Positions 12,358 to 61,910 of a DNA stretch of 64,000 nucleotides are shown in pieces. Numbering within the stretch: position 1 is the first letter of the stretch; each line of letters opens with the position of its first letter. The stretch is from Tetracentron sinense (lineage: Eukaryota > Streptophyta > Magnoliopsida > Trochodendrales > Trochodendraceae): NCBI GenBank assembly GCA_015143295.1, contig CM026565.1, forward strand, positions 11,778,041 through 11,842,040, given 5' to 3'. The position numbers and the translations under genes were made by a program. Below the pieces are notes generated by a model, which was not told where the DNA came from, searched no databases, and saw only the letters and a program-made list of their open reading frames with translations.

Positions 12358-12703
12358 AGTCCATGCATAGGGGATACTAGTTGCGATGGCCTATGAACGG
12401 CAGCTAGGCATACCCAGTCCATGCATAGGGGATACTAGTTGCGACAGTCTATGAACGACAGCTAGGCATACCCAGTCCAGCATAGGGCATACTAGTTGCG
12501 ACGGCCTATGAAAGGCAGCTAGGCATTACCAGTCCATGCATAGGGGATACTAGTTGCGACGGTCTATGAATGGCAGCTAGGCATACCCAGTCCAGCATAG
12601 GGGATACTAGTTGTGACGGTCTATGAACGGCAGCTAGGCATACCCAGTCCATGTATAGGGGATACTAGTTGCGACGGCCTATGAAATGAAACTAGGCATA
12701 CCC
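12358..12703 (+). repeat. LTR minisatellite of element B, copy 1
   Basis: Six tandem units of about 58 bp (57 when starting AGTCCAGC). Each unit has GCTAGGCATACCC and GGGGATACTAGTTGC arms that can pair imperfectly into a hairpin. The repeat lies downstream of the TATA box, so it would be in the transcript. Confidence 0.9.
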
Positions 12704-13031
12704 AGTCCAGCATAATACAAGCAAGAACACGACATGACACGCATGATTAGACATGCATGATATGACACACACGATTAGACGCGCATAATAGACAAGCAAG
12801 ATAGACATGATGTTTTTTCACGCATGAACTACGTATTTCAAGTCAAGTACAGTACAAGATGATTTCAAGAGTTTTTCCGACTTCGATATGATTCAAGCAT
12901 GAACTATAAACTGGTTGTTTTCCCTATTAATCATATGAACTGCTTCCTGCTTATTTATATTTCTATATTGCTATGTTGCTATGACTGTTGGTTAGTATTT
13001 AGTGCACGCTGAGTATTCCATGCTCAGCCGT

Positions 13032-13157
13032 ATGTTTTTTTCGGTAGGTAATGAGGCAGCTACCTTTCCATTCGACATCTGTGCTCTTGGCCCCTGGGTA
13101 GAAGAGGAGTTCGTTGAGGAACCTGTGGTGGAACCTCCAGTAGAGGGCTACTATTAG
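13032..13157 (+). CDS. Conserved LTR mini-ORF, family B copy 1 (41 aa)
   Basis: An ATG-to-TAG frame of 42 codons in the 3' half of the LTR. The protein has the conserved core PFDIC-ALG-PWVEEEF followed by acidic proline-glutamate repeats (VEEP, VEPP) and ends GYY. The same core occurs at the same LTR position in families C, D, E and F with many third-position changes. No known domain is recognised. It has no signal peptide or membrane segment. It could be a short protein, an upstream reading frame of the retrotransposon mRNA, or a second exon. Translation is unproven. Confidence 0.5.
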   Translation: MFFSVGNEAATFPFDICALGPWVEEEFVEEPVVEPPVEGYY

Positions 13158-16832: not shown

Positions 16833-17179
16833 AGTCCATGCATAGGGGATACTAGTTGCGACGGCGTATGAACGGCAGCTAGGCATACCCAGTCCATGCA
16901 TAGGGGATACTAGTTGCGACGGTCTATGAACGGTAGCTAGGCATACCCAGTCCAGCATAGGGGATACTAGTTGCGACGGCCTATGAACGACAGCTAGGCA
17001 TACCCAGTCCATACATAAGGGATACTAGCTGCAACGGTCTATGAACAATAGCTAGGCATACCCAGTCCATGCATAGGGGATACTAGTTACGACGGTCTAT
17101 GAACGGCAGCTAGGCATACCCAGTCCATGGATAGGGGATACTAGTTGCGACGGCCTATGAACGGCAGCTAGGCATACCC
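16833..17179 (+). repeat. LTR minisatellite of element B, copy 2
   Basis: Six units of 57-58 bp, the same family as at 12358-12703. The order of variant units differs between the LTRs, so the arrays have changed since insertion. Confidence 0.9.
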
Positions 17180-17505
17180 AGTCCAGCATAAGACAAGCAA
17201 GAACACGACATGACACGCATGATTAGACACGCATGACACGACACGCACGATTAGACGCGCATAATAGAAAAGCAAGATAGACATGATGAGTTTTCATGCA
17301 TGAATTGAGTATTTCAAGTCAAGTACAGTACAAGATGATTCCAAGAGTTTTTTCGTCTTTGATATGATTCAAGCATGAACTATAAACTGGTTGTTTTCCC
17401 TATTAATCATATGAACTACTTCCTGCTTATTTATATTTCTATATTGCTATGACTGTTGGTTAGTATTTGGTGCACGCTGGGTATTCCATGCTTAGCCGTA
17501 CGTTT

Positions 17506-17613
17506 ATGTCGGTAGGTAATGAAGGAGCTACCATTCCATTCGATATCTGTGCTCTTGGCCCCTAGGTAGAAGAGGAGTTCGTTGAGGAACCTCCAGTAGA
17601 GGTCTACTATTAG
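17506..17613 (+). pseudogene. Conserved LTR mini-ORF, family B copy 2 (nonsense allele)
   Basis: ATG TCG GTA GGT start, then PFDIC-ALG-P and a TAG (17563-17565) where the other families have the core tryptophan. The frame continues after it to the normal TAG at 17613 (36 codons). It is 6 codons shorter than copy 1 because of an in-frame deletion in the proline-glutamate part. Confidence 0.5.
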
Positions 17614-23340: not shown

Positions 23341-23690
23341 GTGCATTTTCGAAAGACGAACCCAACGCAAGTTGAATCGTCGAAATCCGACGAGCGAGTC
23401 AAAAGATATGGTCAAAACAGTCCAGACCTACAGAGCATCGATCGCTCGGTCCATTCAGCGATCGATCGGTCCAAAACCGATCGATCGGTAGCTATCGCAC
23501 GGTCAAAGATTTTGTATGGGGAAATTTTCCAGAGAGTGAGTTTTTGACCGGTCGATCGGTCAATAACACCGATCGCTCGGTAGGCAACCGATCGATCGGT
23601 CATAACCACCGATCGCTCGGTCTTCGCGTTTTTGCAGAAATTTCATTAAGGGCGTTTTCATCTTTTGGGGGTTAAACCCTTTCCTATAAG
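23341..23690 (+). promoter_or_regulatory. C1 U3 control region: conserved block, palindrome cluster and TATA box
   Basis: At 23341-23425 lies the block containing CAACGCAAGTTGAATCGTC, shared with LTR families B, D, E and F. Then 23440-23625 holds about eight copies of CGATCGATCGGT or CGATCGCTCGGT, which are full or half palindromes. TATAAG follows at 23685. Position and order suggest an enhancer and promoter. Factor binding is an inference. Confidence 0.55.
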
Positions 23691-24015
23691 GCTTTGCCTG
23701 AGCCTTAGGGTCTCATTCTCATCACTTAAGAGAAATTGAGAGATAGAGAGTGAGAAGAAGGGGGTTTCTAACCTAGGATTTCCATTGAGGAATGAATCAA
23801 AGGGGTGGACCATCCTAGGTCATCCTCAAGCTTGGATTGCTTCAAGTTCAAGGCTCAAGCTCGTGTGGGAGCCACTCTCCAAGCTAGGGAAGCACTCACT
23901 CACGTTTTTGAAAGGGGTTTCTTTCCCAACTCAAGTCCCCTTCAAGCAAAAGGCTTCCTCCTTCCAAATAGAGCTTCTATTTCAAGGTTTCTTCAAGATC
24001 AAGCCTTGATCTAAG

Positions 24016-25146
24016 GTTAGTACACCCTACTAACTTACCCTAGCAAAAATCTAGGTTTTCTATATAAAAATGTGATTCTTTATATTATGTTTTCCTCCTT
24101 ATGAAATGTGTTATCCCCCATTAAATATAAACAAGATAATGGAGAAGGTGTGGATGTGTGGATGGAATGTTGGATGTGGCGATTGGATGCCGAGATGTAT
24201 GTTGTGTGATGTGTGTGATGGAAATGGTGGATGGGTATTTTACCAATAATGAACTTACCTTGATGTTTGGATGGAAAATATGCGCTAAAAAGAACACGAT
24301 GAATTATTAAGAAACATTGTATGTGTTGTGTTTGACAAAATGCCTAAGATATGAATAAATGATCTAAAGGAAGAATATGGAAATGGGTTTTATACATGCG
24401 TTCTTATAAACGATAAATTGATCAAATGTTATGCAAACTACTTATGTTACCTATGTTCATATCATGAATTGAATTGTAATGTCATATCTTGGTTATTCCC
24501 ATTATCATGATTGTCACTATGGACACGTACACGAGCACGCATGAGAGCATGAACCGAGATTCCAAGAGCATGTGTATATAATAAACACAAGTGCATTGCA
24601 TATCAAGGAGGTTGGTAGCCCAGGGACATTCGGGTACTAACCTCTGGCTCACAAGTGCATTGCATATCAAGGAGGTTGGTAGCCCAGGGACATTCGGGTA
24701 CTAATCTCTGGCTCACAAGTGCATTGCATATCAAGGAGGTTGGTAGCCCAGGGACATTCGAGTACTAACCTCTGGCTTACAAGTGCATTGCATATCAAGG
24801 AGGTTGGCAGCCCAGGGAGATTCGGGTGCTAGCCTCTGGCTCACAAGTTACGAGATGGAGGTTTACAAGATGATGATCATGCATTCATGCATGCACGCAT
24901 ACATGATTTCTACGAGGCATACCGGGACATGACATGGGTTTTCAAGCATGAGTTTTATCGGCGTTTTCGCATTCATGTACGCACGTCAGGATGCTTGTAT
25001 TGTATCATGCCTTATACTGTTTCCTTTGTGATGTTTCTATTACTGCTTGTATGATATTACTATTGTGTGTTTTATTATTGTTATGGTCTGCTAGTAGCTT
25101 GTACTTGTTGAGTATTCCATGCTCAACCGTACTTTCATGTCGGCAG
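24016..25146 (+). other. Possible intron in the LTR leader of C1
   Basis: A donor-like AAG/GTTAGTACAC at 24016 and an acceptor-like CGGCAG/GTACTG at 25146 bracket the minisatellite. Both ends are conserved in families D and E. The acceptor falls four codons into the mini-ORF. Splicing has not been shown, and reading phase across the junction is not kept between families. Confidence 0.3.
24586..24841 (+). repeat. LTR minisatellite of C1 (4 units of 64 bp)
   Basis: Four units of exactly 64 bp. In each, GAGGTTGGTAGCCC and GGGTACTAACCTCT form a hairpin with a loop around ACATTC. It is homologous to the array in element D (opposite strand). Confidence 0.92.
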
Positions 25147-25277
25147 GTACTGAGGAAGCCCTCGACCTAGAGCCTTGGGTCGAGGAAGAGTATATAGAGG
25201 AGAGAGAGCCGGCTATTCCATTACAGTCTCAGGCGGACCGAGACCTCGATGCGTGGCCATACCTCGACTACTGTTGA
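25137..25277 (+). CDS. Conserved LTR mini-ORF, family C (46 aa)
   Basis: ATG TCG GCA GGT ... TGA, 47 codons. The protein starts MSAGTEEALDLE, has the core PWVEEEYIEE and ends WPYLDYC, with a net strong negative charge. Families D and E share the start (SAG), the core and the acidic tail. No known domain. The ATG lies just upstream of a splice-acceptor-like CGGCAG, so it could instead be an exon. Confidence 0.5.
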   Translation: MSAGTEEALDLEPWVEEEYIEEREPAIPLQSQADRDLDAWPYLDYC

Positions 25278-25561
25278 GGGGAGAGTATGAGAGGGTCTTG
25301 TGTATTTTGATGTTTTGATAGGTGGGCCTGTCCACCTTAGACTTAGACATGTCTTGTATTTATGTTAACTTGGAATACTATTTTGGATCATTAGAAGAAA
25401 TGAAAATTTGTTTACGCTTCCGCATATATGATAGCTTCCGCACTCTGATTATCGTTGTTAGTACTGTATTTTATCTTGTGCATTACAGGATGGTTTGATA
25501 GGTACGTAGTGTGACACCTAAAATATCCCTAAACTCCTAGGGGGTACATCGGGGTGTTACA

Positions 25562-32324: not shown

Positions 32325-34195
32325 TGTCGCGACCCAAAATACCCCCTAGGAGTTAAGGATACTTTGACTCGTGACCGCCGTATCATACCTCCAGTATGAT
32401 ACATAAGGCACACGTGGAAACCTGTCAGAGTACCTGCATATACATAGCGGAAACGAAATACAATGCACAGCAGAAAATAAAATACTAAACATAGCGGAAG
32501 CAAAATGAATACTCCTATAGCTTGGCTCAAGTAAGAACCAACAAGTATACATGTGTGAGAAACCCAAAAGTGGAGTGGACAAACCCCACACTCACATAAC
32601 AAAATGACACAAGTTCTAAGTCGGTCGATCAACAGAAATCGAAGTCACGACTCCTATCTAGAGCACCATCGTCATGATAGTGATTCATGGAAGGCTCCGG
32701 GTCACGGTACTCTTCCTCGACCCAAGGTTCGTCGCCACACAAATCGAATGGAACCCGAGCACCTGCCGATCATAACAATATCGACTGAGCATGGAATACT
32801 CAGTGTATACAAACTAAGAACAATAAAGCGGTTAGGCATGGAGCATACAAGACATGGAGAATGAAATCCGAACAATCCTTAAAGCATGGAAACCGTGAAA
32901 ACATATGTGAGATAATATTCGAAACCAAAACTGTAACCGTGTGAGTCAATCGATAATCATAGCCTTATGAGTTCTTGTGAGTTCATGGAGTTACTTAGAG
33001 TCATTATGATCCGTAGAGACATAGAGCATAGAGCATAGAGCAATACCGTAGAGCATTTCCATAGAGCATAACCTTAGAGATCTTAGAGCATTTCATTGTG
33101 ATCCGTGGAGCTTGTGAGACGATCTTAGAACATTATCATAGAGTTTCCTTGTGAGCACGGTATGATCCTTAGAGCTTGTGAAACGATCTTAGAGAAATCA
33201 TAGAGTTACTTAGAATCATTCATTATTCGTCTTTTCGTGAAAAACCTTTATTTGTACTTTGAGAAATCCATGGAAACCATCGGTTCATGCGAGACATGCG
33301 AGCATATGCACTTAATAAGAGAAATCATCGTATTTAAACATAGAATCCCTTAGAGGTATTTCATCAAACACTTAGAGTGCATCATAATAGTAACCTTCAT
33401 CCAAGTATATAATCACACCTTTTTCATACATAAAATCAATACACATAGATAGGGCATAGATAAGAAGAATCATACTTAGTAACTAGTAGGATTGCAAGAT
33501 TGTAGTAGAGTGTATCTACCTTAGAGAAATCAATGGATTTGACTCCCAATGGCTGGAACAAGCAAGAACAGTGAGTTCTTGGTTGGAAATCACCAAGGGA
33601 AGTGGAAGAACCTTGATCTTCCACAAGCTTGATCAACAAGTAGTTCCTCTCCTTCTTCTCTCTCTCAAAATCTCCTAAGATAGGGCACAGAGGGTTTCTG
33701 AAACCCTAAGGCACGAACTCAGCCTATTTATAGGCAAGGGGTTGTGTTTAAAGTCTTAAACACCCTTAATGAAGAAAAATTACGTATGACCGATCGATCG
33801 GTGGTATGGACCGAGCGATCGGTGGCTTACCGGTCGATCGGTGTTATGACCGAGAGATCGGTCAAAAACACACTCTCTGGAATTTTTCCCCATACAAAAA
33901 AGTTAACCGTGCGACAGCCATCGAGCGATCGGTAGTGGACCGATCGATCGCAGGTAATGACCGAGCGATCGGTGCTCTGTTATGTCTGGACTGTTTTGAC
34001 CATATCTTTTTACTCGCTCGTCGGATTTCGACGATTCAACTTGCGTTGGATCCGTCTTTCGAAAACGAACATTTCTGACGTTTCGGAATTTCCGATTTCT
34101 CCCTTATTTATTAATTAGACTACGAAAACTATGAAAACGGCCAATTAGCTATGAAGGTGCTATTCATTAAGGATGAAAAAGTCCGGGGTGCTACA
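32325..34195 (-). repeat. Chimeric chromovirus E1: 3' LTR (1871 bp)
   Basis: Reads TGTAGCACCCCGG at 34195 down to CGCGACA at 32325 on the minus strand. Conserved U3 block at 34005-34080, CGATCGATCG cluster at 33785-33975, CCTATAAATAG box at 33724-33733, repeats of CTTAGAGC/CATAGAGC around 32990-33200, and a mini-ORF. Confidence 0.88.
32629..32769 (-). pseudogene. Conserved LTR mini-ORF, family E (start shifted)
   Basis: The 47-codon minus-strand frame begins TCG GCA GGT and encodes SAGARVPFDLC-GDE-PWVEEEYRDPEP ... FDFC, then TGA. One extra A between ATG and TCG puts the ATG out of frame. The coding core remains fully conserved, with the same length as family C. Confidence 0.45.
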
Positions 34196-34212
34196 TTCTC
34201 CCCCCCTTACAA
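34196..34212 (-). other. Polypurine tract of E1
   Basis: Minus-strand TGTAAGGGGGGGAGAA directly before the 3' LTR; the same tract occurs in element D. Confidence 0.85.
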
Positions 34213-34286
34213 AAATTTCGTCCCCGAAATTTGGACGATACATACATGCGTAAAACTATAGCAAAATACAAGGGAATGCCATGGCC

Positions 34287-35715
34287 TTAAACAAATAAAT
34301 GGGGGTACTTTTCTCGTACTTCGGCTTCTCGCTCCCATGTAGCCTCTTCCTTGGAATGATGCTGCCACTTCACTAGGACTAAAGGGATAGTCTTGGTTCG
34401 CAACACTTGATCTCGACGATCCAGAATCTGAACTGGTTGCTCAACCAACGTAAGATCCTCTCGAATCTCAACAGGATCAAGAGCGATGACGTGAGACGGA
34501 TCCGAAATGTATTTTCTAAGCATAGAGACGTGAAATACATTATGGACCGCTGCCATGTGAGGCGGTAGTGCTACCCTGTAAGCAACCTCACCAACCCTTG
34601 TGACGATCTCAAATGGTCCCACGTACCTAGGACTGAGCTTTCCCTTCTTCCCGAATCGCATGATTCCCCGACTCGGCGAAATCTTCACAAAGACCCGATC
34701 CCCAACTCGGAACTCTAAATCTCTGCGGCGTATATCCGCATAGCTCTTCTGCCTATCCTGAGCACTTTTCAATCGCTCCCGGATAATTTTGACCCTTTCT
34801 GCGGTCCGCTCTATCAACTCAGGACCAAGAATTTTCCTCTCACCAACTTCATCCCAGTATAGCGGTGATCGACAACTCCGACCATACAGAGCTTCAAAAG
34901 GTGCCATCTGGATGCTCGCCTGATAGCTATTGTTGTAGGCAAACTCGACCAACGGCAACTGTTCCTCCCAACTACCCTGAAAATCCAGCATACAAGCTCG
35001 GAGCATATCCTCCACTACTTGATTCACCCTCTCCGTTTGTCCATCGGTCTGAGGATGGAAGGCGGTACTGAATTCTAAACGAGAACCCATAGCATCCTGG
35101 AAAGTTTTCCAAAACCTGGAAGTAAACCGAGGATCTCGATCAGACACGATAGAAACTGGCACACCGTGCAGTCGAACCACCTCCTTAACATATAGGGCTA
35201 CCAACTGATTTGCATTGAAAGTAGTTCGGTACGGAATAAAATGTGCAGACTTAGTCAACCTGTCCACAATCACCCAAATAGCATCGGAGCCCTTCGCCGT
35301 TCGCGGAAAACCCACAATGAAATCCATCGAGATGTTCTCCCATTTCCACTCCGGAATAGGAAGGGACTGCAAAAGACCTGCCGGCCTTTGATGTTCGGCT
35401 TTTACCTGCTGGCAAATCAAACATCTGGCGACGTACTCAGCGACTTCCCTCTTCATGTTTCGCCACCAGTAGTGCTTCTTGAGATTCTGGTACATCTTAG
35501 TACCTCCCGGATGTACCGTGTACTTTGATCGGTGAGCTTCATTCAAAATTTCATCCCTCAAAACTGTGTCGGCGGGGACACACAACCTGCCTTTAAATGT
35601 GATAGCACCATCATCATTTAAAGCGAACTCCTGATTGCCGTTACTCACCGACTTGTCTCGGTAAGCAAGCAACTCAACATCGGAATTCTGTAACTCCTTG
35701 ATCTGGCTCAGGAAT
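34287..35715 (-). CDS. E1 integrase with chromodomain-like tail (461-codon open frame)
   Basis: This is the longest undamaged coding stretch in the window; the open frame covers 34287-35672, and homology extends to about 35715. Order: zinc-binding [11 protein letters not shown] ... [11 protein letters not shown]; catalytic D in MDFIVGFP; second D in [14 protein letters not shown] in [17 protein letters not shown]-terminal SH3-like part (GKLSPRYVGPFEIVTRVG); and a chromodomain-like end (VEQPVQILDRR ... LVKWQHHSKEEATWE). The tail is the Tekay/Del type, thought to guide insertion into chromatin. Upstream RT and RNase H of this element are missing because another element is joined at 35715. It may still fold, but lacks a start of its own. 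Confidence 0.9.
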
Positions 35716-36358
35716 TCTGACGATCTTAGGCAGTTTTCAACCGATCCCGGATGATCTTAACTATATTTTGCGGTTTGCTTGATCAACTCCGGACCAAGTA
35801 CTTTGGATGCTCGCCTGATAACTATTGTTATAGGCAAATTCAACCAAAGGCACGTGCTCTTCCCAACTGCCCTTGAAATCCAACATACAAGCTCGAAGCA
35901 TGTCTTCGATGACTTGGTTCACCCTCTCGGTTTGTCCATCCATTTGTGGATGAAATGCGGTGCTGAAGTCAAGTCGGGAACCCATGGCATCCTGAAAACT
36001 CTTCCAGAACCTGGACGTGAATCTCGGATCCCGATCTGACACAATACTAACTGACACCCCATGTAGCCTAACCACTTCCTTGATGTACAGAGCGGCCAAC
36101 TGGCTAGAATTGAAGGTGGTTCGATAAGGCAAGAAATGCACGGACTTTGTCAAGCGATCCACTACTACCTATATCGCATCTGAGCCCCTTGCCGTCTTTT
36201 GTAAGCCAACTATGAAATCCATGGATATGTTCTCCCATTTCCACTCGGGAATAGGAAGAGACTGCAATAGACCGGCGGGTCGCATGTGTTCTGCTTTCAC
36301 CTGTTGGCACACCAAGCACCGTGCCACATATTCCGCAACATCCCTCTTCATATTCTGT
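35716..36358 (-). pseudogene. E2 integrase, C-terminally truncated
   Basis: A second integrase copy. It keeps the catalytic D in [13 protein letters not shown] and the E in TERVNQVIEDML. Near 35810 about 110 nt are deleted, and the sequence ends without chromodomain tail or 3' LTR. In-frame stops lie at 36169-36171 and 36358-36360, each replacing a tryptophan codon of the relatives. Confidence 0.85.
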
Positions 36359-37902
36359 CACCAAAAGTGACTCTTAAGGTTCTGGTACATCTTTGTACCC
36401 CCAGGATGCACTGTGTACTTCAAACGATGTGCTTCATCCATGATCTCTCGTCGAAGATCTGCATTGGCCGGAACACACAGCCTTCCTTTAAACGTAATAG
36501 CACCTCGACTAGTGAGAGAAAAGTCTTTACTACCCTTGGCAATTTCCTTGTCCCGATAAGCCAATAATTCAGCATCCGTGGCTTGGTATTCTTGGATCAA
36601 ATCTATAATATATGGCCGAACCGTGACATTTGCCAAAACAGGACCGCGAATTGTATCATTCACACTAATGTCCAGATTTGCCAAATCCTCCAATAATCTC
36701 CATTCTTGCACCAACATGTGTGCTAGTAACCCCAGAGCTCTTCTACTCAAGGCGTCTGCTACTACGTTCGCTTTTCCCGGGTGGTATTGGATGGTGCAGT
36801 CATAGTCTTTCAAAAATTCCATCCAACGTCGTTGCCTTAGATTCAGCTCCTTTTGGGAAAAGAGATACTTGAGACTCTTGTGATCCATATACAAATAGAA
36901 CTCCACCCCATAAACATAATGGCACCAAATCTTGAGTGCAAACACGACCGCGGCAAGTTCCAAGTCATGCGTGGGGTAATTCTTTTCATGCTCCTTCAAT
37001 TGCCTTAATGCATAGGCAATGAACTTCTTGTGTCGCATGAGCATGCAACCAAGTCCCACGTGCGAGGCATCATTTTACACCTCATACCCGCCATGTCCAG
37101 ATGGCACTGTAAGGATGGGGGCCGTGGTAAGCCTCTTTTTCAGTTCCATGAAACTGATCTCACACTTATCACTCCATACAAATTTCGCATTCTTCCTTGT
37201 CAAATAAGTGAGCGGTGTCGCAAGGCTGGAGAAACCCTCTACGAATCTCCTGTAGTAGCCTGCCAACCCAAGGAAACTACGTATCTCTGTGACACTTTTG
37301 GGCTTCGCCCAACTCATGACTGCCTCTATCTTCTTCGGATCCACTGATATGCCTTTCGCGGATACAATGTGGCCTAAGAATGCCACCTCTTCCAACCAAA
37401 ACTCACACTTGTTAAGTTTGGCGTATAGCTTGTGCTCTCTCAGCATTCCCAAAGCAAGACGAAGGTCTTGCATGTGATCTTCCAGTGTCTGGGAGTACAC
37501 CAAGATATCGTCGACAAACACGATCATGTATCGATCTAGATATGGCTGGAACACCTGATTCATCAAATCCATAAAGGCTGCCAGGGCGTTCATGAGACCA
37601 AAAGGCATCACCAAGAACTCATAGTGTCCGTATCGAGTCCTGAAAGCAGTTTTGGGCACATCCTCGGCCTTCATCTTCAATTGGTGATAACCCAAGCGAA
37701 GATCGATCTTTGAGAAAAATCTCGCTCCTTTCAACTGATTGAACAAGTCATCAATTCTAGGTAATGGATACCTATTCTTTATAGTGACTTTGTTCAATTG
37801 CCGGTAATCGACACACATTCGCATCGAGCCATCCTTCTTCTTAACAAATAACACCGGGGCACCCCACGGTGAGACACTTGGTTGAATGAAACCAAGGCCT
37901 TA
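36359..37902 (-). pseudogene. E2 reverse transcriptase and RNase H
   Basis: RT motifs [50 protein letters not shown] and the catalytic [11 protein letters not shown] (about 37500) are all readable. RNase H follows ([42 protein letters not shown]). One phase is kept through the whole pol. Stops at 37900-37902 and 37075-37077 disable it. Confidence 0.9.
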
Positions 37903-38507
37903 CAATTCCTCCAACTGAGTCTTCAACTCTTTGAGTTCAATCAGGGCCATTCTATACGGAGCCCGAAAGATGGGAGCTATGCCTGGAGCAAGCTCGATCA
38001 CAAACTCAATCTCCCTGTCTGGAGGCAACCCTGACAACTCCTCTGAAAATACATCCAGGAATTCACTCACGACCGGGATAGTCGAAGAGTCCTTTGCCTC
38101 GGGGTTTGCTAAGCTTAGTGCCGCAAAGTGAGCAATATCTTTATTCCTCATCCCCCGGAAATGAAATGGCTTCCCTTTTACTGGCTTGAAGAGTACCATC
38201 TTCTCAAAGCAAGCCACATGCCCATGATGTGCTGCTAACCAATCCATCCCCAAGATAATGTCAAAGTCCTGGAATCCGAGGACGATGAGGTCGATTGCCA
38301 ACTCATGGCTTCCCACTTGAACCACACTGTTTCTACACACTTTATCCGCCAATACTATCTTGCTGAGAGGAGTCGAAATGGCCAACTCCGGTTTCAACTG
38401 GCTAGGGTCCACAGAAAAGCCTTCTGAAAAAATCGGCGATACGAATGAATGAGTAGACCTTGTGTCGATTAATACTCGAGCCAAACATTCATTGACTAGT
38501 AAGGTTC
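37903..38507 (-). pseudogene. E2 aspartic protease
   Basis: Follows the intron acceptor. GTLLVNECLARVLIDT, then RSTHSFVS: the glycine after the catalytic D-T is replaced by arginine, which would disable the enzyme. IILGMDWLAAHHGHVACFEK follows, then the linker to RT ([12 protein letters not shown]). Confidence 0.87.
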
Positions 38508-38650
38508 CTTAAATTTTAGCTAGCTAAGTCAATCCATGCATCAACAACGTATACATATAGGTATTTATATATAATATGCCATATACGTACACAAAGAATA
38601 ATACATAACAATTCAATTTATGGGTAATTAAATAAATTACAACTGCGTAC
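38508..38650 (-). other. E2 gag-pol intron (143 nt)
   Basis: Minus strand: exon ...GTGCAAG, intron GTACGC...TTAAG, exon GAACC. Joining gives VVQ-G-TLLVNE in one frame, whereas unspliced reading ends three codons later. Very A/T-rich inside. Confidence 0.68.
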
Positions 38651-39923
38651 CTTGCACTACATTGTCAGATGCAAGTGCATCACCCTCTATCAAGGCAAAA
38701 ACTCGCCCCTGATTCGCCTGGCAAGGTGGAGGTGTAGGCCGTGCAGGCTGGAAGGACGCCTGGTATGATCCTGCTGGACGACCTGGGAGCCTAATCCTCT
38801 GTGACTGGCCTGGCAGATGCCTCGTCGGACAATCCCTGATCATGTGACCCTGGCGACCACAATGGAAACATCCACTCGATGCCTTTCGACAATCTCCTAC
38901 CGGGTGCCTTCTGCCACAAGACGTGCAAATCTTATATGTGTAAGTCGGAGGGATCGGAGGTGGAGCATGCCTCGCTACCTGAGGTGCAATGGGCCGTGGG
39001 GCAGGAAGAGCCTGAGGTCGTGGCGCCTGAGGCGCATACTGCCGTGGAGCTAGAGGCGCATAAGCTGTCCTCAGCGGTGGTGCTGGCCACGCATACTGTG
39101 GTGGTGTTGGCCATGCGTACTGATAAGGGCCGGTACGAGCCCACCTCTCTGGAGGTGCTGAACTACTGGCTTGGCCTCTCCCCAATTCCCTCTTCTTGGA
39201 CACGGTCTCTGAATTGGCCTCAACCAACAAGGCTTTATCCACTACTTCGGCGTAAGTGGCGTGCCTGAAGACCGAGACTCTCTCCATAATAATATCTTTG
39301 AGCCCTTGCTCAAACCTTCTTACCTTCATCACCTCGGTAGCGATCATATGAGTCGCAAAGCATGACAGCTCTGAGAACTTGGCCTCATATTGCGCCACCG
39401 ACATCGAACCTTGTTCCAGGTTGATGAATTCTCTCTCTTTCTTTTCCCGAGCTCCAACTGGGAAATACTTCTTGTAGAAGGTGTCCTCGAACTCCTCCCA
39501 AGTCTAGGGTTGACCTTGCATAGTCAACTCTTGAGTCCTCAAGGCGGACAACCACCAATGGTGTGCCTCACCCTCGAGCATGAAAATTGCCCATGCTACT
39601 CTATCCTCCTCTGAAGGCGAGAGGACCTCAAAGATCTTCTCCAACTGGAGGATCCAAGCCTCCGCGGCAAGAGGGTCCACACTCCCATGGAATGGTGGAG
39701 GCCTCAATCTCCTGAATGCCTCAACCCCAGCTGTACGATGTACTGGAGCAGCAAGCGGTGGAGTAGGTGTTGCAGACGATGGAGTAGCCTGCCTAGCCGC
39801 CAGTAAGGCTAAAGTCTCTGCAATAGAGCCGAGAACCTGAGAGAGGTCCGGCTACTCACCCTCATCTCGAGAAGAAGATGAAGCCCTAGTGTGTGGTCCG
39901 CGACCCCGTGTGCCCCTCCTCAT
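38651..39923 (-). pseudogene. gag: E2 gag
   Basis: ATG at 39923 (MRRGTRGRGPHTRASSSSRD), then the gag core (RRLRPPPFHGSVDPLAAEAWI at about 39650-39710; EFINLEQGSMSVAQYEAKFSEL). A glutamine/proline/alanine-rich linker and the zinc knuckle CFHCGRQGHMIRDC (38830-38870), preceded by CTSCGRRHPVGDC, follow. Two in-frame stops at 39852-39854 and 39504-39506 are the only breaks. Continues into pol through the intron. Confidence 0.88.
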
Positions 39924-40249
39924 GGCTACTGTCCTGAGATCAATAACACCACATGAGTCTAACTTGGAACCAAAATTCATCATACTTTCATTTCACACTA
40001 ATTCAAGTAGTACTATTGATATAGTATTAGTATATATTGCATCATACCCATCGGTGTAGACATAAGAGACTTAGTGTTCTAGCGTTTCTAGACAAGCACT
40101 TGGTTGGGACAACCATTTTGGACTAAGACTAAAATTTAGTCTCACACTTGGAATCATGACTCTCTTCCAACTTCCTTCCTAACTTGCTTCCTAACATATG
40201 TTCTCTTCAAGCCGTGGTACCAGATTCTAAGTGACCCTAGAGACCTAAA
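39924..40249 (-). other. E2 leader, non-coding
   Basis: About 330 bp between the primer site and gag. No coding content seen; T-rich on the minus strand. Confidence 0.6.
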
Positions 40250-40268
40250 GCCTAGGCTCTGATACCAC
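40250..40268 (-). other. Primer binding site of E2
   Basis: Minus-strand TGGTATCAGAGCCTAGGC next to the LTR at 40273; initiator tRNA-Met type. Confidence 0.88.
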
Positions 40269-40272
40269 TTCT

Positions 40273-41770
40273 TGTCGCGACCCGAAACCCACCCTAGGAG
40301 TTAGAGTGAATCTTGGACGACTAATCATGACTACATGACTTGCATGATAAACCATCCTGCAAAAACCCACAAGGCATATACAATAGAGGACATGATTAGC
40401 GGAAACATCACTAACATGGTACAGCAGAAGACTAACAACCTCTATGTATATATAAATATATGATTTAAGTTTAATACAAAAAGGAATCGCCAAAAGAAAG
40501 TGCGGACATGCCCGCCAAAATACATGGATATCTCTCTCTCAACTCACCCACAACTATGCACTCAGAATCTCCTACCACCTAATAGTAACCCTTGGCCAGA
40601 GGTTCCTCCAAAGGTTCTTCGACGTACTCCTCCACCCAAGGGCTCGGAGCACAGACATCAAATGGAGTGGTATCTCCCTCAGTACCTGCCAACATAAGAA
40701 GTACGGCTGAGCATGGAATTCTCAACGGGTACCAAGTACTAACCAACAATCATAGCAACACCATAGTAGTATAGGAAGCAGTTCACTTATATGAAGCAGG
40801 AACAATTAACATCATGACAAGGAAATAAAGCAATTTATAATCATGCTTACATTTCATAAAAATCGATAAAACCCTTGAAAACATCGTGCACTTGACTTAA
40901 CTGAAATTACCCTTTTCGTGATTTAAAACTTGTCTATCGTGTCATGCATGTCATGCCATGCGTGCCATGCTTGTATCATGCTTGCTTGCTCGAAAAATAA
41001 ACTACTTGTGAGGGAAGGGAGACCCTTCTTCCTAAATGCCCATGTCATGTCATGCTTGCTTGGAAAGTAAACTACTTGTGAGGGAAGGGAGACCCTTCTT
41101 CCTAAATGCCCATGATAGTCTTGTTCTTGCCAAAAGCGAAGTGAAACATATCATAGGATATGTCCCACCTCTAAGTCTCGTTCTTAAAAATACCGATAAA
41201 ACATGTCATGCATGCCGTACTCGTGGGACCATGTACAATTTAGTATGACAATTGTATAGAGAACATTTCAATTGATCAATAATTAAATCAAACCAATAAG
41301 CATTTAATCTATCAAGAAGTTCACACATACATTTTCTAAAATAAAGCATCATCTTCTTCAATGAGGCATTTCATCAAACACTTGGCTTGCATGCGATCGA
41401 TCGCACACTTATTTGCGATCGATCGCAGGTCCTTGCGATCGATCGCACCTGGATGCGATCTATCGCATATGAACCCGAACCTTTCTGGTCTGATTTCCCC
41501 CTGCATGGGATCGATCGTACACTCTTGCGATCGATCACAGATCCCTACGATCTATTGCACCTGGGGATCCATCTATCGCATATGACCCCGAGAGTTTGGG
41601 ACCCATTTCGCCTGCATGCGATCGATCGCACCCTTCAGATTTTGTTGTTTTTCTCCTATTTTTCCACACTTTGGTAATTTGGCCATAACTTTCAACTCGT
41701 TTGTTCGATTTTGACGATTTAACTTGCGTTGGATTCGTCTTTCGAAGGGGAACATTCTTGACATTTCAAA
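40273..41770 (-). repeat. E2 5' LTR (family F), truncated at its right end
   Basis: Starts (left side) TGTCGCGACCCGAAACCC, the family-B type of LTR end, and contains the mini-ORF (40579-40695), a twice-repeated hairpin unit (40985-41115, GGGAAGGGAGACCCTTCTTCC), GCGATCGATCGC palindromes (41390-41640) and the conserved U3 block (41680-41770). The expected U3 end GGGGTGCTACA is not found; the right border is uncertain. Confidence 0.78.
40579..40695 (-). CDS. Conserved LTR mini-ORF, family F (38 aa)
   Basis: Intact ATG-to-TAG frame of 39 codons: MLAGTEGDTTPFDVC-APS-PWVEEYVEEP, ending KGYY. It shares the C-terminus GYY with family B, and the start MxAGTE with family C. Third-position differences prevail over amino-acid changes in the core. 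Confidence 0.5.
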   Translation of the reverse strand: MLAGTEGDTTPFDVCAPSPWVEEYVEEPLEEPLAKGYY

Positions 41771-41989
41771 ATTTCTAATTTCTACTTTATTTATTGACTA
41801 AATTACCCCTGAAGTCGACTGATCCGTAAATGGGTTTCAGTAACTTGGGTTTTCGATATATTCGACTTAGGAATACTACTTTTTAACACTTAGAGTTGTT
41901 CAAAATTTCTCATTTCATAGAAATGGAAGATTACAAAGGCTTCATGCCTTGGCACAGATCCCAATACATGGAAAAAAGTTATGGGGCTC
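41771..41989. other. Unassigned stretch between the E2 LTR and the element A copy
   Basis: About 220 bp without recognisable coding or repeat content. It might be the eroded end of LTR F or part of the variable gag region of the Sirevirus-like copy. Confidence 0.4.
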
Positions 41990-44430: not shown

Positions 44431-44586
44431 TCAATAGTCACCCCCGTGGGGCCAATGGTCTAAGTCTCTCGCTTCTGCCTGAGGCTCGACTGCTAGATCC
44501 TCATACGGTTCCTCCTCGCCATAGTCCTCCTCTATCTAAGGACCCGGATCACATATGTCAAGAGGAGCTCGTGTACTTGCCGACAT
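44431..44586 (-). pseudogene. Conserved LTR mini-ORF, family D copy 1 (nonsense allele)
   Basis: ATG TCG GCA start, APLDIC-DPG-P, then TAG at the core tryptophan, as in family B copy 2. The rest of the frame (IEEDYGEEEPYEDLAVEP ... WPHGGDY) is open to the TGA, 52 codons in all. Confidence 0.48.
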
Positions 44587-44800
44587 GAAAGTACGGCTGA
44601 GCGTGGAATACTCAGCGAGTACAAACTCCTAACCAACAATGGTAATAACGAACAACATCATATACAAGTAATAGAAGGAGTACAATTCATAATCAATTTC
44701 TAACGACATCATACATAAACGTTTTATTAAGTATAATTGTTATGAAACCAAAACACGTCTATGAATCATAAGAAACCTCTTTGAGTTATCCTTTCAATAT

Positions 44801-45460
44801 TTCTTATGAGCCAGAGGTTAGCACCCGCATATCCCTGGGCTACCAACCTCCTTAACAGTACAATATATTTCTTATGAGCCAGGGGCTAGCACCCGTGTAA
44901 TCCCTGGGCTACCAACCCCCTTGACAGTACAATATATTTCTTATGAGCCAGGGGCTAGCACCAGTATAATCCCTGGGCTACCAACCCCCTTGACATTACA
45001 ATATTTTTTTTATGAGCCAGGGGTTAGCACCCGTATAATCCCTGGGCTACCAACCCCCTTGACAGTACAATACCTTTCTTATGAGCCAGAGGTCAGCACC
45101 CGCAAAATCCTGGGCTACTAACCTCCTTGACAATACCATTTCTTTTCTTATGAGCCAGAGGTTAGCACCCTTAACCGGGGCTACCAACCTCCTTGACAGT
45201 ACAATACATTTCTTATGAGCCAGAGGTCAGCACCCGCAAAATCCTGGGCTACTAACCTCCTTGACAATACCATTTCTTTTCTTATGAGCCAGAGGTTAGC
45301 ACCCTTAACCGGGGCTACCAACCTCCTTGAGTACAATACCTTTCTTATGAGCCAGAGGTCAGCACCCGCAAAATCCTGGGCTACTAACCTCCTTGACAAT
45401 ACCATTTCTTTTCTTATGAGCCAGAGGTTAGCACCCTTAACCGGGGCTACCAACCTCCTT
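44801..45460 (-). repeat. LTR minisatellite of element D, 3' LTR copy
   Basis: Ten units of about 62-70 bp around CTTATGAGCCAGAGG ... CTACCAACCTCCTTGAC. Hairpin arms are the same as in C1. Two sub-types alternate at the right end, indicating expansion of a two-unit block. Confidence 0.9.
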
Positions 45461-46243
45461 GACAATATCCTCCATCTACATATGTGCTCGTGCATAGCAA
45501 TCGTGAAATCATGATGAATTATAGCATTTTAACAATTCCCAACTCACATGAGAATTTAAGAAGCGAAATAAACACATGTATACAACTTGCCAAATGGGGA
45601 ACATTTATGTGACTCATGCTTTCAAATCTTAGTTTATTCATGCATTCTATCAAACATGTGGTATTCAACCTTTTTACCTTTAGTTATTTCATATTTTCTC
45701 ATTCGAACATTTCATCAAACACTTGGGGTGTGTTCATTATGCGTAATATGCCCTTCCACCATTTTTCCATCATTCAATACATCACAACATGGCATCCAAT
45801 CGCCTCCACTCCTCATCCATTCATACATTCCACCCTTTGTTTGTATTATCTTGTTTATGTTTTAGGGATTTGGCATATACCAACACAAGGGAGCGATTGG
45901 TACTCTGACCGAGGGACCGGTCAAAAACTCACTCTCTGGAAAATTTCCCCATACAAATTTTTCGACCAGTCGATAGCCTCCGATCGATCGGTTTTGGACC
46001 GATCGATCGCTCCGTGGACCGAGCGATCGGTGCTCTACTGGTCCCGACTGTTTTGACCATATCTTTTGACTCGTTCGTCCGATTTTGACGATTCAACTTG
46101 CGTTGGATTCGTCCTTCGAAAACGGAAATTTCTGACGTTTCAGAATTTCCGATTTCTCCCTTATTTATTAATTATACTGTGAGAAAGGCCAATTGGTAAC
46201 GAAAATGCTATTCATTAAAGTTGGAAAAGTCCGGGGTGCTACA

Positions 46244-49307: not shown

Positions 49308-49666
49308 TCAAAAGTGAAATGGCTTAACTCCCATCGGCTCGAAGTTCACCATCTTCTCGAAACATGCCACATGTCCGTGGTGAGCCGATAGCCAATCCAT
49401 ACCGAGTATAACATCGAAATCTAAGTCTTGGAAGTCCAGGATGATGAGGTCGGCTAACAACTCATTCTGTCCCACTTGGACTACACAGCCCCTGTATATA
49501 CGGTCCGTGTCCACCGACTTGCCGAGCAGTGTGGAGATGGTCAATTCATGCTTCAACTGACTGGACTTGGTTGAAAATCCTTTCGCAAAGCTAAGCGATA
49601 CAAAGGAATGAGTGGATCCTGTGTCGATCAACACTCGAGCTAGGCATTCATTCACTAATAACGCGC
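49308..49666 (-). pseudogene. Element D: aspartic protease
   Basis: Starts at the intron acceptor: ALLVNECLARVLIDTGSTHSFVS, with intact D-T-G, then VILGMDWLSAHHGHVACFEK. Ends at TGA 49308-49310, which replaces the arginine of FHFRG in E2. Confidence 0.9.
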
Positions 49667-49802
49667 CTGTGTGATTAATTAAATTCACGTTAATAGATTT
49701 CACACAATAACACATACGTATAGGTAGTATGTCATACATATAAGCAATCACATCACATAATAGAAGCCAATTACAACTCAAAACTTTAGCATGATAGCGT
49801 AC
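49667..49802 (-). other. Element D: gag-pol intron (136 nt)
   Basis: Minus strand GTACGCT...CACACAG between CAAG and GCGCG. Splicing gives VVQ-G-ALLVNE. Unspliced gag ends within a few codons (VVQGTLSC). Phase and position are identical in elements 0 and E2. Confidence 0.7.
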
Positions 49803-51007
49803 CTTGCACGACATCGTCAGATGCACGTGCATCCCGTTCCGATAAGGCAAAGACCTGCCCCTGGTCTGCCCTGCAAGGCGGTGGAGTGGATAACGTGGGT
49901 CGTGAAGGCCTAGACGCAGAAGCCTGTGAGGATCCCGACTGGGAATCCTGTCGAACTGGGGGCCTACTCCCCTGGGGTTGGATAGGCTGCAGCTGCCTGC
50001 GTGGGCAATCCCTGACCATGTGATTCACATCTCCACAGTGAAAGCACCCACCCGAAATCCTCCGACATTCACCAATCTGGTGACTCCGACTACAATAGGA
50101 GCACTCCTCAAATGCTGATGAGGATGAAGGTGGAACATATCGGGTGGCCTGTGAAAGTGTGGGACGAGGTACCGGTGTAGTGGTAGGCCGAGATACCTGT
50201 GATGTCAAGGGAGGCCTCTGTGACCGTATCAGCTTGGATGCCTGATATGGGGCTGCCCTAGCCCTCTTCTCTGCCGACCCCGAACTACTCGATTGGCCTC
50301 GAGCCACATCCCTTCTCTTGAAGAATTCTTCCGAATTCTTCTCGGCAAGCTTCACCTTGCTCACAACCTCTCCCCAGGTAGCCACCTGGAACATCGAGAC
50401 CCTGTCTCTAATGGAGGGTTTCAATCCCCGCTCAAATTTCCTGACTCGCATATGCTCCGATGCAATTAGGTGAGGTGCGAATCTCGACAACTCCACGAAG
50501 GTAGCCTCATAATCGACCACACTCAACTCTCCTTGTTCAAGAGTCATGAATTCAATCTCCTTCTGTTCTTTGACAGCCGCCGGAAAATACTATTTATAGA
50601 AGACATCCAAAAATTCCGACCATGTCCACAGCTCCCCCGCCCTGGTGGACTCCCTCTGTCTCTGTGCGGCTCTTCACCAATGCTCGGCCGCACCTTCCAT
50701 CACGAAGGTGGCCCAGTCCACTTTTTGTTCATCCGTGCAGTGGAGCGCTCTAAAAATCTTTTCCAATTGCATCACCCATGCCTCGGCGACCATGGGGTTA
50801 GTAGTACCGAAGAAGGTAGGAGGACGCAATCTCCTAAATGCCTCCAATCCTGAAGCATGGTGTGCCGGAGGTGGCGGAGGCGTAGAAGGAGTAACAGCAA
50901 CTGGCCTTGCTGCTAACATAGCCAAAGTCTCAGCTATAGATGCAAAAGCTTGGGCAAAATCGGGTTGCTCGTCACCGGAAGGGGCATCACTTTCACTTCC
51001 CCTCGTA
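49803..51007 (-). pseudogene. gag: Element D: gag
   Basis: Frame from the palindrome centre: RGSESDAPSGDEQPDFAQAF, then RRLRPPTFFGTTNPMVAEAW, the core (LEQGELSVVDYEATFVELS), a serine/proline linker and the knuckle CFHCGDVNHMVRDC (about 49990-50045) preceded by CSYCSRSHQIGEC. Stops at 50674-50676 and 50590-50592. The initiation codon expected upstream is lost because the sequence turns into an inverted copy at 51008. Confidence 0.88.
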
Positions 51008-51291
51008 TTGTATCCGCGACCCCGAGCCTACGAGGGGAAGTGAAAGTGATGCCCCTTCCGGTGACGAGCAACCCGATTTTGCCCAAGCTTTTGCATCAAT
51101 AGCTGAGACTTTGGCTATGTTAGCAGCAAGGCCAGTTGCTGTTACTCCTTCTACGCCTCCGCCACCTCCGGCACACCATGCTTCAGGATTGGAGGCATTT
51201 AGGAGATTGCGTCCTCCTACCTTCTTCGGTACTACTAACCCCATGGTCGCCGAGGCATGGGTGATGCAATTGGAAAAGATTTTTAGAGCGC
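50745..51291. repeat. Large palindrome in element D gag (two 263-bp arms)
   Basis: Left arm 50745-51007 and right arm 51029-51291 are near-perfect reverse complements, with a 21-nt spacer (51008-51028). The right arm is an inverted duplicate of the gag N-terminal region, so the same peptide reads on both strands. Confidence 0.93.
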
Positions 51292-51384
51292 CCCATGCAC
51301 TTGGAATACAACTCTTTCCTACACCTAATGCCTTGTTCAATTATGGTATCTAGTACTAAGCGACCCTAGGGACTCTAATGCCTA
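51292..51384 (-). other. Element D leader remnant
   Basis: Short non-coding leader between the palindrome and the primer site. It is much shorter than in E2 (about 330 bp), so the inverted duplication replaced part of it. Confidence 0.6.
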
Positions 51385-51690: not shown

Positions 51691-51840
51691 TCACCCCCGT
51701 GGGGCCAATGGTCTAAGTCTCTCGCCTCCGCCTGAGGCTCGAACTGCTAGATCCTCATACGGTTCCTCCTCGCCGTAGTCCTCCTCTATCCAAGGACCCG
51801 GATCACATATGTCAAGAGGAGCTCGTGTACCTGCCGACAT
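51691..51840 (-). CDS. Conserved LTR mini-ORF, family D copy 2
   Basis: ATG TCG GCA GGT; APLDIC-DPG-PWIEEDYGEEEPYEDLAV, with the core tryptophan intact. One inserted nucleotide (relative to copy 1) shifts the last part, so it ends after 49 residues with a different C-terminus. Confidence 0.5.
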   Translation of the reverse strand: MSAGTRAPLDICDPGPWIEEDYGEEEPYEDLAVRASGGGERLRPLAPRG

Positions 51841-52053
51841 GAAAGTACGGCTGAGCGTGGAATACTCAGCGAGTACAAACTCCTAACCAACAATGGTAAT
51901 GACGAACAACATCATATACAAGTAATAGAAGGAGTACAATTCATAATCAATTTCTAACGACATCATACATAAACGTTTTATCAAGTATAATTGTTATGAA
52001 ACCAAAACACGTCTATGAATCATACGAAACCTCTTTGAGTTATCCTTTCAATA

Positions 52054-52715
52054 TTTCTTATGAGCCAGAGGTTAGCACCCGCATATCCCTGGGCTACCAA
52101 CCTCCTTGACAGTACAATATATTTCTTATGAGCCAGGGGCTAGCACCCGTGTAATCCCTGGGCTACCAACCCCCTTGACAGTACAATATATTTCTTATGA
52201 GCCAGGGGCTAGCACCCGTATAATCCCTGGGCTACCAACCCCCTTGACAGTACAATATATTTCTTATGAGCCAGGGGTTAGCACCCGTATAATCCCTGGG
52301 CTACTAACCCCCTTGACAGTACAATACCTTTCTTATGAGCCAGAGGTCAGCACCCGCAAAATCCTGGGCTACTAACCTCCTTGACAATACCATTTCTTTT
52401 CTTATGAGCCAGAGGTTAGCACCCTTAACTGGGGCTACCAACCTCCTTGACAGTACAATACCTTTCTTATGAGCCAGAGGTCAGCACCCGCAAAATCCTG
52501 GGCTACTAACCTCCTTGACAATACCATTTCTTTTCTTATGAGCCAGAGGTTAGCACCCTTAACCGGGGCTACCAACCTCCTTGAGTATACCTTTCTTATG
52601 AGCCAGAGGTCAGCACCCGCAAAATCCTGGGCTACTAACCTCCTTGACAATACCATTTCTTTTCTTATGAGCTAGAGGTTAGCACCCTTAACCGGGGCTA
52701 CCAACCTCCTTGACA
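52054..52715 (-). repeat. LTR minisatellite of element D, 5' LTR copy
   Basis: Ten units, same family as 44801-45460, with the same block order and only small differences, as expected of LTRs copied at the same insertion. Confidence 0.9.
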
Positions 52716-59580: not shown

Positions 59581-61910
59581 TGTAGCACCCCGGATTTTCT
59601 ATACTTAATGAATACCGTTTTCGTAGCTAATGGGCCTTCCTCATAGTTTAATTAATAAATAAGAGAGAAATCGGAAATTCCGAATGTCAGAAATGTGCAT
59701 TTCGAAAGACGAACCCAACGCAAGTTGAATCGTCGAAATCCGACGAGCGAGTCAAAGATATGGTCAAAACAGTCCAGACCTACAGAGCATCGATCGCTCG
59801 GTCCATTCACGATCGATCGGTCCAAAACCGATCGATCGGTAGCTATCGCACGGTCAAAGATTTGTATGGGAAATTTTCCAGAGAGTGAGTTTTTGACCGG
59901 TCGATCGGTCAATAACACCGATCGCTCGGTAGGCAACCGATCGATCGGTCCATAACAACCGATCGCTCGGTCTTCGCGTTTTTGCAGAAATTTCATTAAG
60001 GGCGTTTTCATCTTTGGGGGTTAAACCCTTTCCTATAAGGCTTTGCCTGAGCCTTAGGGTCTCATTCTCATCACTTAAGAGAAATTGAGAGATAGAGAGT
60101 GAGAAGAAGGGGGTTTCTAACCTAGGATTTCCATTGAGGAATGAATCAAAGGGGTGGACCATCCTAGGTCATCCTCAAGCTTGGATTGCTTCAAGTTCAA
60201 GGCTCAAGCTCGTGTGGGAGCCACTCTCCAAGCTAGGGAAGCACTCACTCACGTTTTTGAAAGGGGTTTCTTTCCCAACTCAAGTCCCCTTCAAGCAAAA
60301 GGCTTCCTCCTTCCAAATAGAGCTTCTATTTCAAGGTTTCTTCAAGATCAAGCCTTGATCTAAGGTTAGTACACCCTACTAACTTACCCTAGCAAAAATC
60401 TAGGTTTTCTATATAAAAATGTGATTCTTTATATTATGTTTTCCTCCTTATGAAATGTGTTATCCCCCATTAAATATAAACAAGATAATGGAGAAGGTGT
60501 GGATGTGTGGATGGAATGTTGGATGTGGCGATTGGATGCCGAGATGTATGTTGTGTGATGTGTGTGATGGAAATGGTGGATGGGTATTTTACCAATAATG
60601 AACTTACCTTGATGTTTGGATGGAAAATATGCGCTAAAAAGAACACGATGAATTATTAAGAAACATTGTATGTGTTGTGTTGACAAAATGCCTAAGATAT
60701 GAATAAATGATCTAAAGGAAGAATATGGAAATGGGTTTTATACATGCGTTCTTATAAACGATAAATTGATCAAAATGTTATGCAAACTACTTATGTTACC
60801 TATGTTCATATCATGAATTGAATTGTCATGTCATATCTTGGTTATTCCCATTATCATGATTGTCACTATGGACACGTACACGAGCACGCATGAGAGCATG
60901 AACCGAGATTCCAAGAGCATGTGTATATAATAAACACAAGTGCATTGCATATCAAGGAGGTTGGTAGCCCAGGGACATTCGGGTACTAACCTCTGGCTCA
61001 CAAGTGCATTGCATATCAAGGAGGTTGGTAGCCCAGGGACATTCGGGTACTAATCTCTGGCTCACAAGTGCATTGCATATCAAGGAGGTTGGTAGCCCAG
61101 GGACATTCGAGTACTAACCTCTGGCTTACAAGTGCATTGCATATCAAGGAGGTTGGCAGCCCAGGGAGATTCGGGTGCTAGCCTCTGGCTCACAAGTTAC
61201 GAGATGGAGGTTTACAAGATGATGATCATGCATTCATGCATGCACGCATACATGATTTCTACGAGGCATACCGGGACATGACATGGGTTTTCAAGCATGA
61301 TTTTTGTCGGCGTTTTCGCATTCATGTACGCACGTCAGGATGCTTGTATTGTATCATGCCTTATACTGTTTCCTTTGTGATGTTTCTATTACTGCTTGTA
61401 TGATATTACTATTGTGTGTTTTATTATTGTTATGGTCTGCTAGTAGCTTGTACTCGCTGAGTATTCCATGCTCAACCGTACTTTCATGTCGGCAGGTACT
61501 GAGGAAGCCCTCGACCTAGAGCCTTGGGTCGAGGAAGAGTATATAGAGGAGAGAGAGCCGGCTATTCCATTACAGTCTCAGGCGGACCGAGACCTCGATG
61601 CGTGGCCATACCTCGACTACTGTTGAGGGGAGAGTATGAGAGGGTCTTGTGTATTTTGATGTTTTGATAGGTGGGCCTGTCCACCTTAGACTTAGACATG
61701 TCTTGTATTTATGTTAACTTGGAATACTATTTTGGATCATTAGAAGAAATGAAAATTTGTTTACGCTTCCGCATATATGATAGCTTCCGCACTCTGATTA
61801 TCGTTGTTAGTACTGTATTTTATCTTGTGCATTACAGGATGGTTTGATAGGTACGTAGTGTGACACCTAAAATATCCCTAAACTCCTAGGGGGTACATCG
61901 GGGTGTTACA
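59581..61910 (+). mobile_element. Solo LTR C2 (copy of C1)
   Basis: 2330 bp, the same element in the same site as 23225-25561, with GATGG on both sides (59576-59580 and 61911-61915). Palindrome cluster 59790-59975, minisatellite 60935-61190 (4 units). Confidence 0.9.
61486..61626 (+). CDS. Conserved LTR mini-ORF, family C, second copy
   Basis: Identical 47-codon frame to 25137-25277. As part of the duplication it is not independent evidence for conservation. Confidence 0.5.
   Translation: MSAGTEEALDLEPWVEEEYIEEREPAIPLQSQADRDLDAWPYLDYC

Follow-up and report, generated by a model that had tools for sequence, protein, structure and literature searches.

The long terminal repeats (LTRs) of a group of chromoviruses in the genome of Tetracentron sinense contain a small reading frame that is real and under protein-level constraint. 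Directly in front of this frame, at a YAG|GT motif preceded by a branch-point-like block, the type of constraint switches, marking a putative 3′ splice site. The frame probably is an alternative 3′-terminal coding exon: one donor at the end of gag would be joined either to protease, yielding Gag-Pol, or to the 3′ LTR, yielding a tailed Gag without pol. The sequence evidence comprises the protein constraint on the frame, the acceptor-type nucleotide constraint before it, its phase match with gag, the gag donor itself, and genomic copies from which the intron following that donor has been removed.

The window, i.e., the whole 64-kb stretch of DNA analysed here, is a nest of retroelements, and the small frame was present at all eight LTR places (8/8) named in a preliminary description of this DNA. 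The eight places are not independent, because they include a duplicate and two LTR pairs, and they collapse to the five LTR families that had been claimed. The copies at 25137 and 61486 (B1 and B2) represent a single solo LTR with the target site duplication GATGG, located within a 5.1-kb duplication whose two copies are 98.5% identical, while 13032/17506 (A1/A2) and 44586/51840 (E1/E2) are LTR pairs. Counted from the putative splice site, the exon is intact in frame in the solo LTR B1 (25147..25277, plus strand) and recurs in its segmental duplicate B2 (61496..61626, plus strand), in A1 (13048..13157, plus strand) and in family D (40579..40685, minus strand). In family C (32629..32762, minus strand), an in-frame TGA stands right before the acceptor motif, and there is no ATG. 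Three copies are altered: in A2 (17516..17565, plus strand), the PW tryptophan is replaced by an in-frame TAG that cuts the exon short, the 3′ LTR copy E1 (44536..44576, minus strand) has decayed, with a TAG at the same codon and an acceptor AG that reads AA, and the tail of the 5′ LTR copy E2 (51691..51830, minus strand) is frameshifted. The chromovirus assignment within Ty3/gypsy is based on a C-terminal integrase chromodomain in element CD (PF00385 at window positions 34287–35672, E = 4.2e-6, above the cutoff); no chromodomain was found in the one ORF of element E that was examined. The elements putatively belong to the Tekay clade, the name used in the preliminary description. An element with gag-pol at 34196–40272 (window 32325–41989, minus strand) is flanked by a family C 3′ LTR and a family D 5′ LTR, which are very different from each other, indicating either a recombinant element or chance neighbourhood. 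Another peculiarity of the window is a stretch of 566 bases at 50735–51300 (minus strand), overlapping the leader and the gag start of element E, which shares 96.7% identity with its reverse complement.

Constraint on the encoded protein was first suggested by the core of the frame. A hand-made alignment of 18 core codons, picked because they looked conserved, gave a pS of 0.85 and a pN of 0.22 for the five families of the window; differences at the first, second and third codon positions numbered 38, 33 and 95, respectively (column-shuffle p 1e-4), in line with the third-position bias described earlier for the core. Degenerate codon patterns for PFD-I-C-x3-PW[VI]E and PFD-V-C-x3-PW[VI]E matched the 1.16-Gb genome 4,794 and 7,391 times, and chance is excluded, since these 12,185 forward matches compare with 0 and 0 for the reversed core patterns used as controls. 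Forty-eight copies were read, namely 38 small loci chosen by differing codon spelling, six larger loci, and four window copies. The small loci (L039–L058 and L065–L082) were hand-picked for varied spellings among the first matches per pattern, and all are located on contig C1. Codons downstream of the search pattern, which are not conditioned by the search, could be aligned for 45 of the 48 copies; two tails of fewer than 12 codons and one copy at a locus edge were left out. In this alignment, pN was below pS in 926 of 951 pairs. One genomic copy is represented twice, as L057 and L061, in these pairwise values as well as in the column-conservation, phase and ATG counts given below. When each of 21 clusters (85% identity) was represented by one row, pN was below pS in 201 of 204 pairs, with a mean pS of 0.81 and a mean pN of 0.37. 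Heterozygosity in the tail was.34,.33 and.55 at the three codon positions, and the third-position excess was matched in none of 20,000 shuffles. Comparison of family C with nine clade mates resulted in pS values of.70–1.11 and pN values of.12–.19.

Past the stop codon, the pattern disappears: within the following 150 nt, heterozygosity was.38–.45 in every register (42 copies), without codon periodicity. Selection on a protein, as proposed from the window alone, thus holds well beyond five families, all tests having been performed within a single species. A dN/dS near 1, set beforehand as the outcome that would speak against such selection, does not describe these data, pN being well below pS, and neither does equal conservation of the flanks, considering the lack of periodicity downstream and the nucleotide-type constraint upstream. 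The tail of the predicted peptide is acidic (27% D+E versus 3% K+R) and has a median length of 37 amino acids, ranging from 18 to 58 (42 copies). Many copies resemble one another at the end of the tail, which reads ...DLD.W...(D/G)Y(Y/C)-stop or ...PPVEGYY-stop; others have variant endings or shorter tails. Querying a protein database with the alignment of the five families returned one candidate and no scored match, and a Pfam search with the B1 peptide revealed no family.

Constraint upstream of the frame is of a different kind. A block of the form GARTRTTYCATRCTCAGYCGTAC...TCGGCAGGT occurs at 13,464 places genome-wide (6,783 + 6,681; reversed control, 0) and places a CTCA about 21 nt ahead of the invariant A of YAG|GT. 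In copy B1, this conserved block extends over 25110..25148 (plus strand); judged by sequence pattern, it contains a branch-point-like CTCA, with its A at 25125, and a 3′ splice acceptor AG at 25145–25146. Since the length of the block shifts by one or two bases among families, it is not coding. Codon-type constraint begins after the AG. Five of the 48 copies have no intact YAG; in each of the other 43 (43/43), the distance from the AG to the core is in the same phase. Column conservation (49 rows) amounts to.90,.98,.90 and.98 for CTCA and to 1.0,.90,.96 and.96 for AG|GT, and is weaker in the adjoining ATG, with A at.73, T at.86 and G at.82. In the GCA codon of the motif, variation is confined to the first and second bases (.90 and.84), the third being A in 49 of 49 rows, which is the reverse of the pattern in the tail; in the TCG codon, the third base varies in 7 of 44 rows and the second in six. 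The motif was also considered as a donor, but scored only 0.3–2.7 with the approximate matrix used here for all donor scores. Near the 3′ end of the LTR, e.g., at 25484–25503 (plus strand) and equivalent positions, a further AG-like site is conserved, namely TTACAG|GATGGTTTG or TTTGCAG|GATGG, which in families B and E is followed by a donor-like AG|GTACG.

According to the preliminary description, the frame usually begins with ATG-TCG-GCA-GGT. Within the window, the ATG is missing at 13032, where TTT takes its place, and at 32769, where TGA precedes TCG-GCA-GGT. Genome-wide, an ATG stands directly before the serine codon of the motif in 32 of 45 scored copies, and in LTR C the frame is located downstream of a TATA box (33725–33732, minus strand), both of which would suit a stand-alone small peptide or an upstream ORF translated from this ATG in the 5′ leader. 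We nevertheless regard such a product as quite improbable: conservation in the columns of the ATG falls below that of the adjacent ones, the codon would be spliced away if the motif is an acceptor, and no in-frame ATG lies between the preceding stop and the core in 9 of 48 copies. Start codons in a context with T at −3, as here, are generally considered poor. Moreover, all 30 family C loci (30/30) carry TGA at the ATG position, albeit these loci were found by protein search and hence are biased towards intact frames, and yet family C compared with its clade mates shows constraint, which may in part predate the loss of the ATG in C. Family C is also very homogeneous; 150 scored matches, from 25,197 candidates, were 98–100% identical, and many of them occur in pairs about 7 kb apart. 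As conserved families lack a usable ATG and a conserved in-frame start codon is not found, the frame probably does not encode a stand-alone peptide, and among the options raised at the outset, a peptide, an upstream ORF or an exon, the last fits best.

The counterpart of the LTR acceptor is presumably situated at the end of gag, where a conserved phase-1 donor, GTNGTGCAAG|GTACGC, reads ...ASDDVVQ-G|GT... (CAAG|GTAC). Scanning of the gag pieces of families C and V, element E and L061 and of the pol pieces of C, V and E identified this VVQG site as the only donor-like site that is placed identically in all of these. CAA and GGT are present at the donor in nine of nine copies, and a donor pattern allowing synonyms had 7,073 matches in the genome, as compared to two for the control; among the 100 matches listed, GGT occurred in 97 and CAA in 94, while the first GTN codon used all four codons. 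Other candidates were discarded: a site at 39323 in the gag of element CD, despite a score of 7.1, has no equivalent in other gag pieces, and SAEG|ISVD and QQ|VKAEH occur in C and V, but not in E.

Shortly after the donor the gag frame closes, and the protease frame resumes 136–148 nt on, following a CAG|G acceptor, likewise in phase 1. Joining the two in silico gives ...DDVVQG-[STA]-LLVNE...DTGSTHS in seven of nine copies; in L064 and element CD, no protease acceptor motif was detected within 260 nt of the donor. The length of the interval varies modulo 3, whereas its phase is constant, and its T content (.39–.43) exceeds that of the flanks (.25–.32). In element E, the predicted intron comprises 136 nt, GTACGC...CACACAG (49667..49802, minus strand), the last gag exon base being 49803 and the first protease exon base 49666. 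In element CD it would span 38508..38650 (minus strand, acceptor end counted by hand), with the donor CAAG|GTACGC intact and the acceptor decayed to AAG.

Copies that lack this intron precisely are also present in the genome. The exact fused gag|protease junction was found at 77 places (control, 0), in spellings of several families. Among 12 fused loci that were examined, eight (L086 and L089–L095; families C, V, L061 and L062) represent exact intron losses, matching an intron-bearing copy at 95–99% identity on the gag side and 96–99.6% on the protease side, with the two sides abutting. These eight losses are best read as recent and as derived from reverse-transcribed spliced RNAs. In L086, the LTR and the leader are present and unspliced. 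The remaining loci, L087, L088, L096 and L097, show at most 90% and down to 65% identity on both sides to the intron-bearing copies with which they were compared, and are too diverged to tell whether the intron was lost or was never present. As judged from the 77 fused junctions and the exact losses, the gag donor is demonstrably in use.

Gag donor and LTR acceptor agree in phase (phase 1), which would allow gag to be spliced to the LTR exon; agreement in phase by itself would arise by chance in one case out of three. We propose that the element RNA begins in the 5′ LTR, that gag is translated, and that its frame ends at the phase-1 donor ...VVQ-G|GT. Splicing from this donor to the acceptor about 140 nt downstream would fuse gag to protease-pol. 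Splicing from the same donor to the acceptor in the 3′ LTR (CTCA...YAG|GT) would instead remove all of pol and append G|GT and a short acidic tail, ...PFD[ILV]C...PW[VI]EE[ED]Y..., with a median of 37 amino acids before the stop, resulting in a Gag-only mRNA whose final codons reside inside the LTR. Such a gag|LTR joining would account at once for the lack of an ATG, the constant phase, the block resembling an acceptor, the selection on the frame and its stop codon. The use of the LTR acceptor by the gag donor is inferred, as is the extension of the RNA to a poly(A) site beyond the LTR exon; the tail might act in particle assembly or in controlling the Gag:Pol ratio. We lean slightly towards the further proposition that the LTR itself is a Gag exon, silent in its 5′ copy and used in its 3′ copy, such that a single donor decides between Gag-Pol and a Gag with a selected tail forming a separate domain.

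Fossils of a gag|LTR junction were not found in the genome, neither with a V/B-type pattern (0 matches) nor with a C-clade pattern (0 matches). Few would be expected, because such an RNA is devoid of the polypurine tract and of most of the 3′ U3, and their absence gives the model no support. Acceptor and frame alone specify no donor, and the exon in the 3′ LTR might therefore be served by a different one, located in pol or in an upstream host gene. This appears highly improbable, since the VVQG site is the only one with the same position in all families scanned, including the pol pieces, and is the one for which use is evident from the fused junctions and exact losses, and host genes offer no explanation for selection across thousands of element copies.

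The 5′ LTR contains splice-site-like sequences of its own. The LTRs possess an AUG-poor exon 1 and a site resembling a donor, and some have a recognisable TATA box. This site is AAG|GTT in LTR B1 (24013..24018, plus strand), where it has the best donor score of the LTR, and AAG|GTA in LTR C (33517..33522, minus strand), where it ranks second; in E2 it is again top-scoring. At the other end of the leader, element D has a 3′ splice acceptor-like block (AAGTTAGACTCATG...CTCAG; 39934..39965, minus strand) that ends 10 nt before the gag ATG, and similar blocks precede gag by 9–11 nt in families C, V and E and in L061–L063. Outside the window, the loci with such a block comprise L014 and L059–L063. 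Probably, gag is also reached by leader splicing. Splicing from exon 1 to the pre-gag acceptor would drop the primer-binding site together with upstream ATGs, and translated and replicating RNAs would thereby be separated.

An LTR acceptor positioned between the exon-1 donor and gag might accordingly be served by this exon-1 donor of the 5′ LTR only, making the frame a leader exon that owes its coding appearance to some different role of this frame. The good donor scores in B1, E2 and C fit this explanation, as does the fact that B1 and E2 align over the 5′ and 3′ parts of the LTR, with a repeat-bearing stretch in between. Exon 1, however, was rejected as a coding start: in eight LTRs, the 300 nt next to its donor contain 0–1 ATG, none of them in frame, and in six of the eight the frame needed for phase 1 meets a stop no more than 36 codons from the junction, right at it in B1 and C. 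Exon 1 of L060 and L061 is open for approximately 60 and 99 codons, without an ATG in the last 300 nt. A genome search with a V/B pattern for exon1|LTR-exon fossils gave 0 matches, though such an RNA retains the primer-binding site, a result that speaks slightly against splicing to the LTR acceptor within the 5′ leader. Overall, we consider a leader exon unlikely and prefer a terminal exon joined to gag. Family-specific tandem repeats with units of 58–69 bp (24586–24848, 44797–45464, 52051–52715, 12358–12714 and 16833–17190) are located upstream of the LTR acceptor, and in B and E they fall between the exon-1 donor and the acceptor, i.e., in a putative leader intron. The 5′ parts of the LTRs of several families harbor short tandem repeats rich in CGATCGATCGGT, e.g., at 33784–33862, 23547–23622 and 59896–59972.

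Gag-only RNAs made by splicing are already known. In BARE1, a Ty1/copia element of barley, splicing at the end of gag removes 104 nt and leads to a stop three amino acids past Gag (PMC3735527). The elements described here resemble BARE1 in having a donor, functional by the above evidence, at the gag end, and a Gag-only RNA, if made, would be a further parallel, but they are chromoviruses in which the fused gag-pol is the spliced form, and the inferred splice would remove pol and add an LTR-coded tail. The copia element of Drosophila produces a Gag-only RNA by splicing out about 2.9 kb of pol (PMC3735527), and EVADE of Arabidopsis produces one, termed shGAG, also by splicing (PMC12786077); in contrast to the arrangement proposed here, the available parts of these sources mention no selected LTR-encoded terminal Gag exon for either. 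A review from 2025 states that plant LTR elements generally have no introns, Ogre and EVADE being exceptions (PMC12786077). In Ogre, a plant Ty3/gypsy element of the Tat lineage, an intron spliced from a subset of the RNA separates GAG-PROT from RT (PMC6317226). As in Ogre, an intron divides coding parts of the polyprotein in the present elements; intron-bearing and exactly intronless copies of the same families suggest its removal from part of the RNAs. Unlike Ogre, these are chromodomain elements, and the intron is positioned between gag and protease rather than between protease and RT.

Additional coding capacity has been described for one Tekay group of sunflower and grasses, in the form of a 5′aORF that comprises about 400 amino acids in sunflower; this ORF, however, is situated at the 5′ end of the element and is not described as an LTR exon in the available text (PMC11728184). 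Spliced short-Gag isoforms were reported from sunflower, with no Tekay among the expressed elements (PMC7730604). A survey of extra ORFs with a threshold of at least 250 codons would for that reason have missed the LTR frame (PMC6317226). A selected Gag exon within an LTR is not described in the available portions of these sources (PMC3735527, PMC12786077, PMC6317226, PMC7730604, PMC11728184), and no plant element with a Gag exon encoded in its LTR appeared among the titles and abstract beginnings listed from the open-licence literature searched.

It is customary to regard LTRs as non-coding. The superantigen of mouse mammary tumor virus (MMTV) and Nef of HIV are encoded by sequences that extend into the 3′ LTR and are reached via splicing; both are accessory proteins, not tails of Gag. 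To our knowledge, it is largely open by what means plant gypsy elements obtain a large excess of Gag over Pol from a single transcript. The elements described here constitute an abundant chromovirus lineage with a gag-protease intron, documented by exact genomic losses, and with a second candidate acceptor in the LTR that precedes a selected exon. If the proposed use of this acceptor is true, thousands of copies would bear an alternative terminal exon of Gag at both of their ends.
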